Assembly (NCBI GenBank): GCA_022560615.1
Contig: JADFSR010000041.1
Span: forward strand, 1 to 33,439
Reading direction: 5' to 3'
From: Gemmatimonadota bacterium
GTDB lineage: Bacteria > Gemmatimonadota > Gemmatimonadetes > Longimicrobiales > Gaopeijiaceae
DNA: 33,439 bases
The translations under genes and the position numbers were made by a program. The notes beneath the pieces are model-generated. The model had not been told where the DNA came from and made no database searches. It saw only the letters and a list, made by a program, of their open reading frames with translations. Position 1 is the stretch's first letter. Every line of letters begins with the position of its first letter. Shown here piece after piece: positions 1 to 9,666 of this stretch.

Positions 1-271
1 AGCTGCTGGCCCCACACCGCTCGTACGCCCAGATATGGCCGTCGATCGGGTCGATGTCGATCCCGGCGGTCGAGCCCCACTCCCTTCCTTCGGGGAGATC
101 CCCCCAGTTCGCCAGCACGGTCGGATTAGGGTTCGGCAGTCCCTCACCGGTGATCGTGTTGCCCGCCGCCATGGCCATCGCGGCCGGCGTCCCGGACTCG
201 CTGGCGCACCCGGCGAGTAGTGCGGCACCGCAAGCCAAAAACGTGGACATCAGGACTCGTGACGATGACAT
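1..271 (-). CDS. NHL/beta-propeller lipoprotein, N-terminal part (runs off window)
   Basis: The minus strand opens with ATG at 271-269, preceded by GGGGGAG about six bases upstream, and stays open to the window edge (about 90 residues). The first 20 or so residues form a lipoprotein signal ending in a lipobox LLAGC, so the mature protein should be lipid-anchored outside the cytoplasm. After a short linker comes a stretch with NPNPTVLANWGDLPEGREWG followed by a GIDIDPIDGHIWAYERCG segment. That looks like the first blade of an NHL or SMP-30-like six-bladed propeller, as in proteins annotated 'peptidyl-alpha-hydroxyglycine lyase-like'. Enzymatic function cannot be judged because the rest is missing. 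It lies downstream of the next minus-strand gene, 119 bases away. The lipoprotein call is firm; the propeller call is moderate. Confidence 0.75.
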   Translation of the reverse strand, partial: MSSSRVLMSTFLACGAALLAGCASESGTPAAMAMAAGNTITGEGLPNPNPTVLANWGDLPEGREWGSTAGIDIDPIDGHIWAYERCGASS

Positions 272-390
272 GGTATCTCCCCCAGCGAAACAGCCGTTGT
301 GTGAGGTCGTGCTCTCGATGATAGCCTGATACGTGAGTCGGCGCGAAATCGAGCGTACGTTAGGACGCCGAGGACCGCCGCGCTGCTGAA

Positions 391-1287
391 TCACACGGAC
401 ACCGTGAGGATGTGCTCCAGAGCCTCGATCAACTTCGCGCGTAGCACTCGGGCGCGTTCGCCGAGCTCCCGCTGGCGGAGTCGGTACTCGATCCTCCCTT
501 GGTGTGTCTCGACCCGGACGGGCTCCAGGCCGAAGTCTCTGAGGTCGTACGGGCTGGCCTGCATGTCGAGCACGCGTAGCTCCGTCGCCAGCTCGAAGCT
601 CTCCCACAGGAGGTCGCTCCCGATCCAGGGCATTGCCCCGTACGCCCACCGATAGAGGTCCATGTTCGCGTGAATGCAGCCCGGTTGCTCCACCTCGTGA
701 CGCGTCGACCACTCGAGCTCCACCCGGTTCAACGGCTTGGCTCGGGGCGCGAAGAAGCGAAAGGCGTCGAAATGGCTGCAAACAACAGGTCTGCCCTCAA
801 CGAAGTCGTCCACCTCCTTCTGGGATAGGCGGAGCCGGGCGATCTCGATGTGGCGGACGTCGTAGCCGCCGTATACCATCGCCCATTCGTGAACTCCGTA
901 GCATCCGAAGTTCGCGCGCCGCCGTTGAGTGGCTAACAGCACACTCACCGCCGATCGTTGCCTATCGAGGTCCTTGTCACGCAGGACGCTCAGGTCGCGC
1001 CGGATCAGCCCGTCGTCTGCCCGGTACAGTGGTGGCCTGAAGCGCTCCCTACCCTCGGGCGAGTCGGCCAAGATTTCGCCGGCTCCCGGATGCCAGGCCT
1101 CGAGCTTGCCCGGCGAATACGTGTAGTACTGAAAGAGGAAGTCGTAGACCGGGTGCCGCTCCCCGCGCGAGCGTCGCTCCCTGTGCGGGACCGTCCACCG
1201 CCGCACGCGCTCGAGGTGGGCCCGTGCGCGCGCGCGCCAGGTAGTGGGCGTCAATACCTGAGGGTCGAAGCGAGGGGTGTCGGGCAT
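391..1287 (-). CDS. Conserved protein of the family often labelled 3-methyladenine DNA glycosylase
   Basis: The protein has 298 residues counted from the ATG at 1287. I prefer this start to the one 30 bases upstream because GAGGGTGG lies just before it. It resembles a family well known from actinobacteria that databases often name '3-methyladenine DNA glycosylase'. The shared pattern is an Arg-rich helix, then HPVYDFLFQYY, then KLEAWHPG near the N-terminus, with CYGVHEWAMVY and CSHFDAFRFF in the middle and a QPGCIHANMDLYRWAY segment later. I do not see the Tyr/His-rich DNA-binding wedge or helix-hairpin-helix of true alkyl-adenine glycosylases, so the name is doubtful. The conserved His, Cys, Asp and Glu residues suggest a metal site or enzyme. 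There is no signal peptide or membrane segment. It is oriented like the genes on both sides but not tightly linked to them. Confidence 0.8.
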   Translation of the reverse strand: MPDTPRFDPQVLTPTTWRARARAHLERVRRWTVPHRERRSRGERHPVYDFLFQYYTYSPGKLEAWHPGAGEILADSPEGRERFRPPLYRADDGLIRRDLSVLRDKDLDRQRSAVSVLLATQRRRANFGCYGVHEWAMVYGGYDVRHIEIARLRLSQKEVDDFVEGRPVVCSHFDAFRFFAPRAKPLNRVELEWSTRHEVEQPGCIHANMDLYRWAYGAMPWIGSDLLWESFELATELRVLDMQASPYDLRDFGLEPVRVETHQGRIEYRLRQRELGERARVLRAKLIEALEHILTVSV

Positions 1288-1563
1288 GCCACCACCCTCG
1301 GCTCTGACAGAGGCCATGTCCAGGGGTCCAGGGGTGACACCGGCGCGGGTTTTTCGCTTTCGGGTCCCGGTCGAGATGTACCCGCGCGCGCTGACCGCTC
1401 CCGTTCAGTACCAGGACGCGTGCAGGCCGAACTGCGGCGTAGTGCTCTTCTGGACCAAGGGGCCTCGGATCGGGCAATCGAGGGGGTGGGGCGCGAGACG
1501 GATCGCGGAGCGATTCCGGACCACCATGACTGACATTCTCGGTTTCCCTGGTTCTTCGCAGAC

Positions 1564-1848
1564 CTATTGGCGCGACCGAATCCATTCGTACTGATCATAC
1601 TTCCGTCTTTCGACATCCGCACGACGAACGCCGACACGGCGCTCTTCCAGGCTGCGCCGATCGGGCCCATCGCGCCGGCTGTCTATCCGGCGGTCCGACA
1701 GTTCACGACGCTCGAGTGACACGTCCATCACGGTGGTGCGACGAACCTCGTCCCGACGGTCATCGGCTCGACGCTGCATGTCTCGACGATCGGCCGTGTC
1801 ACGACGCTCGTCAGCTCCCCGGCGCGTATCGACACGCTCTACATACAT
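1564..1848 (-). CDS. Small Arg-Arg repeat protein, function unknown
   Basis: This is a 94-residue protein. Its ATG at 1848 is preceded by a near-perfect ribosome-binding site, ACGGAGG, with a five-base spacer; this is the main reason to believe it is expressed. Between residues 9 and 82 there are 13 Arg-Arg pairs, starting at 9, 15, 21, 26, 31, 36, 47, 53, 58, 64, 70, 75 and 81. The spacing alternates between 5 and 6 residues, apart from one gap of 11. Most pairs are flanked by Asp or Glu (DRRD, ERRE, EERR). About a third of the residues are Arg. The 11-residue double period suits a long charged helix or a hendecad coiled coil. There is no Cys, signal peptide or hydrophobic segment. The C-terminus leaves the repeat (KYDQYEWIRSRQ). 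I know no named family for it. Nucleic-acid or membrane-surface binding is a guess. Confidence 0.7.
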   Translation of the reverse strand: MYVERVDTRRGADERRDTADRRDMQRRADDRRDEVRRTTVMDVSLERRELSDRRIDSRRDGPDRRSLEERRVGVRRADVERRKYDQYEWIRSRQ

Positions 1849-2427
1849 CCGATCCTCCGTGGCTTGCTAGCCGGTCTCTTCCTCTCTGCGACGGAGCCAA
1901 CCTATCCCGAAGACACCTGCCCGGCCACAACCGGCCCCGGTTTGGCTTCGTGCTCTCCTTTCCTGGGCTCAGGAACCAAGATCTGCGGGCTTTTTCACCA
2001 ACCACGTCCTCCGGTGAGCTCCGCGGTGCCACCTTGCGCGCGTGCCCAAATGTGCAAGAAGCGCGCCCTCACAAGAATGCCGGACTCCCGTCCTATCTAT
2101 GATGCCCTAACGTGTGTACAACAATATGTTACGCGTTCCAGCACACTCGCGCTGTCCGTGTTGCGAAGCCACCGCGGCCGGTGTCTTTGCGTGGCCAGGA
2201 TACCTCGCTCGGCCTTTCCTGCGCTCCGGGCTCCGCCGCTTCGTCGACCGATGACCCACTGTGTCAGGAGCGGCCTGCGCCCTACCTTGTCCCGCTCCTC
2301 ATCAACTCCCGTCTCCCTCGAGCCTGGCGAGGTCCGAAATCTTTCGCAGGTGACTCGCGAAGGCGCCTTGGCCGTCATCACGCTCGGTGCCGTGCTGAGC
2401 GCCGGCTGCGGCGCCCCACCTCCGCTT
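1849..2427. other. Gene-poor stretch, no supported gene
   Basis: This stretch of about 580 bases lies between the Arg-rich gene and the decayed gene. Open frames exist on both strands, but they are rich in Arg, Pro, Ser and Cys, lack a ribosome-binding site and carry no recognisable motif. A more AT-rich patch near 2097-2140 could be part of a promoter for the Arg-rich gene, but I cannot place convincing -35/-10 boxes. It may include the eroded 3' end of the pseudogene upstream. Confidence 0.5.
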
Positions 2428-2855
2428 ACGCGTCGCCTTCATATCTACCGAGAAACCCTGGATGCTGTGGTCGTTCAGGGTCGGCTCGCGTCCGTCCAAC
2501 ACACGGTACGGAGCTGGTCGTCCTTCTCGTACCAGAACATGACCCGATCCGGCCACTGCACGACTTCCGTGAAATTCGGGTCGTACTGGAGCGCCGGCGA
2601 CGCCGATGGAACGCAGTCGTACTCTGGTGCAATCGCCTCGTCGAAGACCTCTGAGAAGCGCGCCTACGCTCGTTGAGCCCGGGGAAATTGTCCGGCGTCC
2701 AGGGCATATTCGGTCCGTTGCCCCGACGCACGCGCGGCCCGCCGCTCCAGACCCCCACGAGGTCGTCGATCTCGGCCTCGACCGTTTGGGCGGTGACCCG
2801 CACGGAAGCCCCGTGAATCGCGACTGCGAGCAGGGTAGCCGCCGCGGCTAGGCAT
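2428..2855 (-). pseudogene. Decayed secreted-protein gene with several frameshifts
   Basis: Reading the minus strand and switching frame repeatedly gives one continuous protein-like sequence. It starts with a signal-like LAAAATLLAVAIHGASV and continues EAEIDDLVGVWSGGP and then NGPNMPWTPDNFPGLNER (frame 1). Near 2660 it shifts to FSEVFDEAIAPEYDCVPSAS, then FTEVVQWPDRVMFWYEKDD and QLRTV (frame 2). Near 2503 an apparent extra GT dinucleotide shifts it to LDGREPTLNDHSIQG (frame 3). Near 2452 it returns to GRYEGDA and a stop. The order (WTPDN, an E-Y-D-C-x-P segment, DGR, HSIQG, GRYEGD) matches a secreted family common in Acidobacteria and similar phyla, whose intact members continue LVVET or similar. 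The start codon is also out of frame by one base (ATG at 2855). At least three frameshifts plus the lost 3' end indicate a pseudogene and not a sequencing slip. Confidence 0.75.
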
Positions 2856-3661: not shown

Positions 3662-3670
3662 GCAGCGCGC

Positions 3671-3696
3671 GGCCCACTGTACTCCTACCATGGGCT
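3671..3696. terminator. Weak inverted repeat between convergent genes
   Basis: GCCCA at 3672-3676 pairs with TGGGC at 3691-3695, with one further G-U pair outside. It sits in the 40-base gap between the ends of lspA and the CNNM/CBS gene and is followed by TGATATTTAG. The stem is short and the loop long (14 bases), so this is only a weak terminator candidate. Confidence 0.2.
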
Positions 3697-3701
3697 GATA
3701 T

Positions 3702-9546: not shown

Positions 9547-9666
9547 GCTTCCTCCCCACTAGAACACAGAAGTCATCTGGCCCTACACGCAGGATACTCG
9601 TCAGGTCCGTGACTTCATCACGCGAATAGGGCTTTTCGCCCCCGAGCAGCTGAGTAGATTCTCGCG

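Follow-up and report, generated by a model that had tools for sequence, protein, structure and literature searches.

The locus described here raises the question of whether a short reading frame crowded with paired arginines (RR), located in a 33,439-nucleotide stretch of Gemmatimonadota DNA (hereafter the window), is a genuine gene and, if so, what kind of protein it encodes. The genome to which the window belongs amounts to 4.5 Mb in 105 contigs and is 99% complete. The frame runs on the minus strand, from an ATG at 1848 to a TAG at 1564, and encodes 94 amino acids, and the plus-strand frame over the same interval is interrupted by a stop. The good ribosome-binding site proposed by the first-pass annotation is indeed present (Table 1), and its GGAG was also found in both other copies of the gene in this genome and in the same-genus orthologue. 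It is very probable that the gene and its family are real: the frame codes for a member of a Gemmatimonadota protein family not yet described, whose proteins have roughly 75-95 residues and are rich in Arg, Asp and Glu.

Thirteen separate RR pairs are carried by the window protein, within residues 9-82, in agreement with the earlier count of 13 in about 75 residues, and this number was reached by none of 100,000 same-composition shuffles (maximum 11). From start to start the pairs are spaced by 6,6,5,5,5,11,6,5,6,6,5,6 residues, the spacing of 11 being one skipped RR pair and the spacing otherwise always 5 or 6; the 11 neighbouring spacings of 5 or 6 were likewise reached in 0 of 100,000 shuffles (maximum 5). 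The order of these spacings shows that the strict alternation of 5 and 6 previously claimed is wrong, and random choices of 5 or 6 hold a 5.5-residue register equally closely in 18% of trials, which is chance level. The acidic flanks attributed to the pairs were borne out, Asp or Glu immediately preceding 8 of the 13 (4 of 100,000 shuffles were as high). Among the 80-residue frames of the window this frame is the extreme and the second is its own antisense frame, also rich in RR because CGNCG is nearly palindromic. The 94 residues comprise 29 Arg, 30 R/K, 24 D/E and 3 Gly, giving a fraction of charged residues (FCR) of 0.57 and a net charge per residue (NCPR) of +0.06 with well mixed charges; NCPR of the orthologues ranges from +0.08 to +0.21, and in most proteins (window protein and orthologues) charge segregation lies below that of about 95% of shuffles. 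A small net charge (NCPR about 0 to +0.2), richness in R and D/E and low segregation, by which an Arg-enriched mixed-charge domain is recognised, are all found. Relatives show comparable V/A-rich stretches at the position matching window residues 38-46, and several orthologues end in short, hydrophobic tails (RRKIIIT, RRRIIIA, RRMMMAFA, RRMVAFA).

Table 1. Features mapped around the RR-repeat gene (window coordinates; G001 is a genome of the same genus, C12 and C55 are other contigs of the window's genome)
Feature	Position	Strand	Basis or remark
RR-repeat protein gene, 94 aa (MYVERVDTRRGADERR...ERRKYDQYEWIRSRQ) and stop TAG	1564-1848	-	ORF, homologues, codon evolution
Shine-Dalgarno GGAGG, 5-nt spacer to ATG	1854-1858	-	sequence
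Central hydrophobic stretch TTVMDVSLE (residues 38-46), in place of one RR pair	1711-1737	-	relatives
C-terminal tail KYDQYEWIRSRQ	1567-1602	-	unlike short hydrophobic tail of orthologues
Stretch duplicated elsewhere in genome	1629-1877		85% to contig C12; dispersed gene copy
Stretch duplicated elsewhere in genome	1629-1863		78% to C55; dispersed gene copy
Upstream stretch, 83% repeat directly upstream of C55 copy	2007-2238		
RR-gene segment (1.1 kb) without counterpart at two matching places of G001	1324-2428		

The two further copies in the window's genome are located on contigs C12 (72% identical) and C55 (70%), and orthologues are present in relatives of the same genus and of the same family. 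Of 116 family genomes, 30 gave profile matches at E ≤ 0.01, representing 16 of 40 genera; the weakest of these matches may be due to chance. Looser relatives occur in other families of the class. One of the genomes with RR proteins, G319 of the same class, shares identical DNA with a public Gemmatimonadetes record (isolate AG30), which assigns the window to Gemmatimonadota. The wider family is built on DRRxGx hexads, with many DRRSGxDRR units in the relatives. A DNA pattern scan returned, among the matches listed, mostly low-complexity tandem repeats; the clean small ORFs among them were mostly from Gemmatimonadetes, the exceptions being one Acidobacteria and one Phycisphaerae protein. The earlier view that the pattern belongs to no named family was borne out, as Pfam-A, NCBIfam, PHROGs and the sequences of PDB chains yielded no significant match to RR proteins, the single Pfam match (E 0.16) being at chance level. 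No match to the RR protein was obtained in plasmids, phages and viral contigs, of which the BLAST low-complexity filter may hide some, and a phage origin was rejected in view of the lack of any phage-family match. Searches for papers containing literal DRRSGxDRR strings, for papers on Gemmatimonadota and hut, and for papers on Gemmatimonadetes with desiccation and disorder returned none.

Some family members have additional architecture. RR repeats are fused to a C-terminal 'EHVRNALQLL...LDRLE' segment (also written EHVRNALQLL...LHRAVGLLE) at eight loci (L182, L127, L142, L107, L108, L095, L100 and L102); the segment has two predicted helices and gave no Pfam match in the 3 members scanned. 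One RR protein ends in a lysine-rich tail (L132), an Acidobacteria record (L145) combines an apparent response-regulator receiver with a DRR-repeat segment and then a Glu/Lys-rich tail, and two different RR-repeat genes lie adjacent in tandem at L068 (7458-8126) and L069 (7682-8342).

Selection on the reading frame was assessed in the closest pairs of family orthologues, in which pairwise dN/dS in the RR frame was mostly 0.1-0.4. For nearly all pairs the five other frames of the same blocks gave higher values, and in almost every pair three or four of these frames exceeded 1; the nearest competitor was the antisense frame sharing codon positions. The RR arginines of orthologues are 91-100% identical, compared with 36-70% for other residues, a count somewhat favoured by a codon alignment anchored on RR, the closest pairs being gap-free over 77-78 codons. 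Between orthologue pairs, 40-84% of the kept RR arginine codons are silently changed. A spacing order of 6-6-5-5-(11 or 12)-5-12-5-6 is common to six relatives from one genus and its neighbours (G006, G065, G103, G121, G134 and G101); G114, G127, G008, G001 and the window show close variants of it. Selection in the relatives acts at the protein level on the RR frame; constraint falls on the RR dyads, and the pattern of their spacing is conserved. The doubt left by the first-pass annotation, that related genomes might hold no homologue or only homologues keeping the DNA and losing the frame, is lifted, since homologues were found by profile search and, on dN/dS, the frame itself is the conserved element. 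A conserved DNA or RNA element (a repeat, a structured RNA or an Arg leader peptide) rather than a protein could be suspected from the RR runs of the antisense frame; however, kept arginines change codon silently, dN/dS is lowest in the RR frame in nearly all pairs, and the region is without inverted repeats or any Rfam match, making this explanation extremely unlikely.

Signals consistent with transcription accompany most orthologues. A promoter-like pair is found about 30-65 nt upstream, in the form TGGACG (or TGGACT, TGGCCG)-N17/18-CATCTT-like (CA..TT), or TTGACC-N17-AAACAT in G029, G078 and G092; this pattern was identified by visual inspection, with only a rough scoring in which another site ranked first in G103, G107 and G114. 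A terminator-like hairpin followed by T lies directly past the stop in G029, G078 and G070, also as read by eye. For none of the three RR copies in the window's own genome was such a promoter recognised. Upstream of the C55 copy (L065, about 9600-9635), two AACATGTT palindromes stand a few bases apart (...TAACATGTTGTTGTGAAACATGTTAG...) and could represent a putative operator; they are altered in the window copy.

The condition of the own-genome copies has to be considered separately from that of the family. Window positions 1-1323 match contig C25 of G001 and the window from 2429 on matches its contig C8. Because the segment between them is absent from these places of G001 and the stretch upstream of the gene recurs at C55, the window copy probably lies at a rearrangement junction, or less probably at an assembly join. 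Among the three copies dN/dS is 0.86-0.99 and the 3' ends differ, the C55 copy being frameshifted before the tail and the C12 copy having a short tandem repeat and an altered tail. As the three copies are dispersed and all have altered 3' ends, the window copy may be partly relaxed, as may the C12 and C55 copies. A stronger version, in which all own-genome copies are decaying or non-functional relics spread by rearrangement while the family itself is real, draws on these same dN/dS values and altered ends, on the different tail and unrecognised promoter of the window copy and on its location at a breakpoint separating two sister-genome regions. Against it, the long open frame, the start and the Shine-Dalgarno are kept in all three copies, and the dyad arginines look more constrained than other residues, RR positions being apparently protected (pN 0.06-0.14 vs pS 0.21-0.29, on small counts); general decay is therefore rather unlikely, with an appreciable chance left to it. 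Two other features of this part of the window were noted. Downstream of the RR gene, a 308-aa ORF (391-1317, minus strand) has 83% identical DNA in the sister genome and gave no Pfam match. After lspA, a 36-base stretch (3665-3700) recurs in G001, twice there (C99 and C78) in inverted pairs separated by about 270-290 bases, and resembles the termini of a small mobile repeat.

The gene neighbourhoods suggested another possibility, that the RR protein forms part of, or regulates, the histidine-utilisation operon or the Na+/H+ antiporter next to its gene. Of the 20 first-fetched neighbourhoods, 11, from 6 genera, have hutH, hutU and histidine-breakdown amidohydrolases near the RR gene, and in several the RR gene is directly downstream of a Na+/H+ exchanger with a cyclic-nucleotide (cNMP) domain. 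However, the window's genome holds no hutH and no match to that antiporter and yet three RR genes, so the function does not appear to be tied to either. In same-genus G001 (L066, contig C93, 6572-7197), only the first ~110 and last ~100 codons of the antiporter are left, adjoining an RR gene and hut which persist; with the absences from the window's genome, this indicates that the RR gene outlives its neighbours. Other RR groups of the class are accompanied by different conserved neighbours, including rho, an epimerase-like gene and others, the proximity of rho (L076, and matching genes in L079 and L083) being possibly a coincidence for some RR genes. Consequently, a dedicated role in histidine breakdown or antiport is quite improbable. 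A structural alternative, raised in outline by the first-pass annotation, is that of a rigid charged helix that serves as spacer or scaffold and displays its RR pairs on two opposing sides; it would be either a single alpha-helix held by E/R salt bridges from i to i+4 or a right-handed hendecad coiled coil. The mean spacing of about 5.5 (11/2) in the window protein, the possible R(i)-D/E(i+4) pairs and the helices predicted at low confidence by AlphaFold2, at 22-33 and 68-93 in the window protein and likewise in a fused relative, agree with this proposal; hendecad coiled coils and ER/K helices share with the RR protein the average 5.5-residue step and the alternating charges. In contrast to such helices, the RR protein has no hydrophobic core: its best hendecad phase is 34% hydrophobic (p = 0.54 vs shuffles), and at heptad core positions hydrophobicity does not exceed that of shuffles either. 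Relatives of 73-87 aa contain 5-11 Gly+Pro, and their hexad DRRSGxDRR units disfavour both helix and 5.5 phase, a register which the 5/6 order of the window protein holds no better than chance. AlphaFold2 gave no confident fold for the window protein (pLDDT 57, pTM 0.19, 10 sequences), its helices being broken. A coiled coil is not supported, since the core is not hydrophobic beyond chance and relatives are rich in Gly and Pro; the Gly+Pro content and the broken, low-confidence helices speak against a single ER/K-type helix as well. A rigid helix of either type is therefore unlikely.

The reading preferred here is that of a polyanion-binding, disordered Arg/Asp mixed-charge chain marked by a conserved RR bar-code, an interpretation drawn by analogy and put forward tentatively, its chance of being correct lying somewhat below even. 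Nucleic acid or another polyanion is the most plausible partner among those suggested earlier. The chain would be mostly disordered and act as a multivalent polyampholyte, each RR dyad, partly neutralised by the preceding D/E, serving as a sticker that holds phosphate-rich or acidic partners weakly, and about ten stickers at 5-6-residue intervals would provide avidity; RNA, DNA or an RNA-protein complex would be the likeliest partners. The V/A-rich centre and the short hydrophobic C-tail may offer a protein contact or a turnover signal.

The closest parallel is given by eukaryotic Arg-enriched mixed-charge domains such as the RD/RE regions of NELF-E and U1-70K/SNRNP70 (Greig et al. 2020, as relayed in PMC9324279). 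Like those domains, the RR protein has R and D/E near balance, a high charge fraction, a slightly positive net charge and no predicted fold, and is proposed here to make many weak arginine contacts. Unlike them, it is bacterial and a complete small protein, for which homology is not claimed, and it has dyads at 5-6-residue steps in a conserved spacing order, a V/A-rich centre and a hydrophobic C-tail. R/D mixed-charge domains partition into RNA-rich bodies when their net charge is close to zero or weakly positive, and how strongly they bind RNA and acidic proteins is set by the way the charges are patterned (PMC9324279). According to the same source, D/R chains in regular alternation show poor interaction with RNA, which counts against the proposed mechanism, as do the own-genome dN/dS values near 1, with only the RR positions looking protected. 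A bacterial likeness is the charged disordered region of Bacteroides Rho, in which short conserved charged motifs act with RNA, although it is a Lys/Glu-rich part of a folded enzyme and has no RR dyads (PMC13269538).

Other known classes were considered. Hydrophilins and LEA-type stress proteins are defined by Gly above 6% and high hydrophilicity; the window protein has 3 Gly in 94 residues (3.2%) and was not assigned to them. The AT-hook was rejected as there is no RGRP core.

The conserved spacing is the part least well explained by a disordered binder, since free disorder should tolerate indels, and it is therefore suggestive of a fixed register or of a bound state. For this reason a separate in-register reading is proposed, a speculative one with only a slim chance of being right, in which these proteins would form a phylum-specific class whose inter-dyad sequence drifts and whose dyad spacing would be a bar-code placing the chain in register along a regular polyanion lattice. 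In extended form, 11 residues would span about 36 Angstrom, nearly the length of one B-DNA turn, and each RR dyad in sequence could then contact the next groove crossing. If true, this would be a register-reading, foldless nucleic-acid-binding protein.

Taken together, what is new is a small-protein family missed by the domain libraries tested, whose translation and selection across genera are backed by several independent lines of evidence. Should the bar-code correspond to in-register binding, the family would offer a simple natural system, in bacteria, for studying how recognition by a disordered protein is set by the spacing of arginine dyads and not by sequence.
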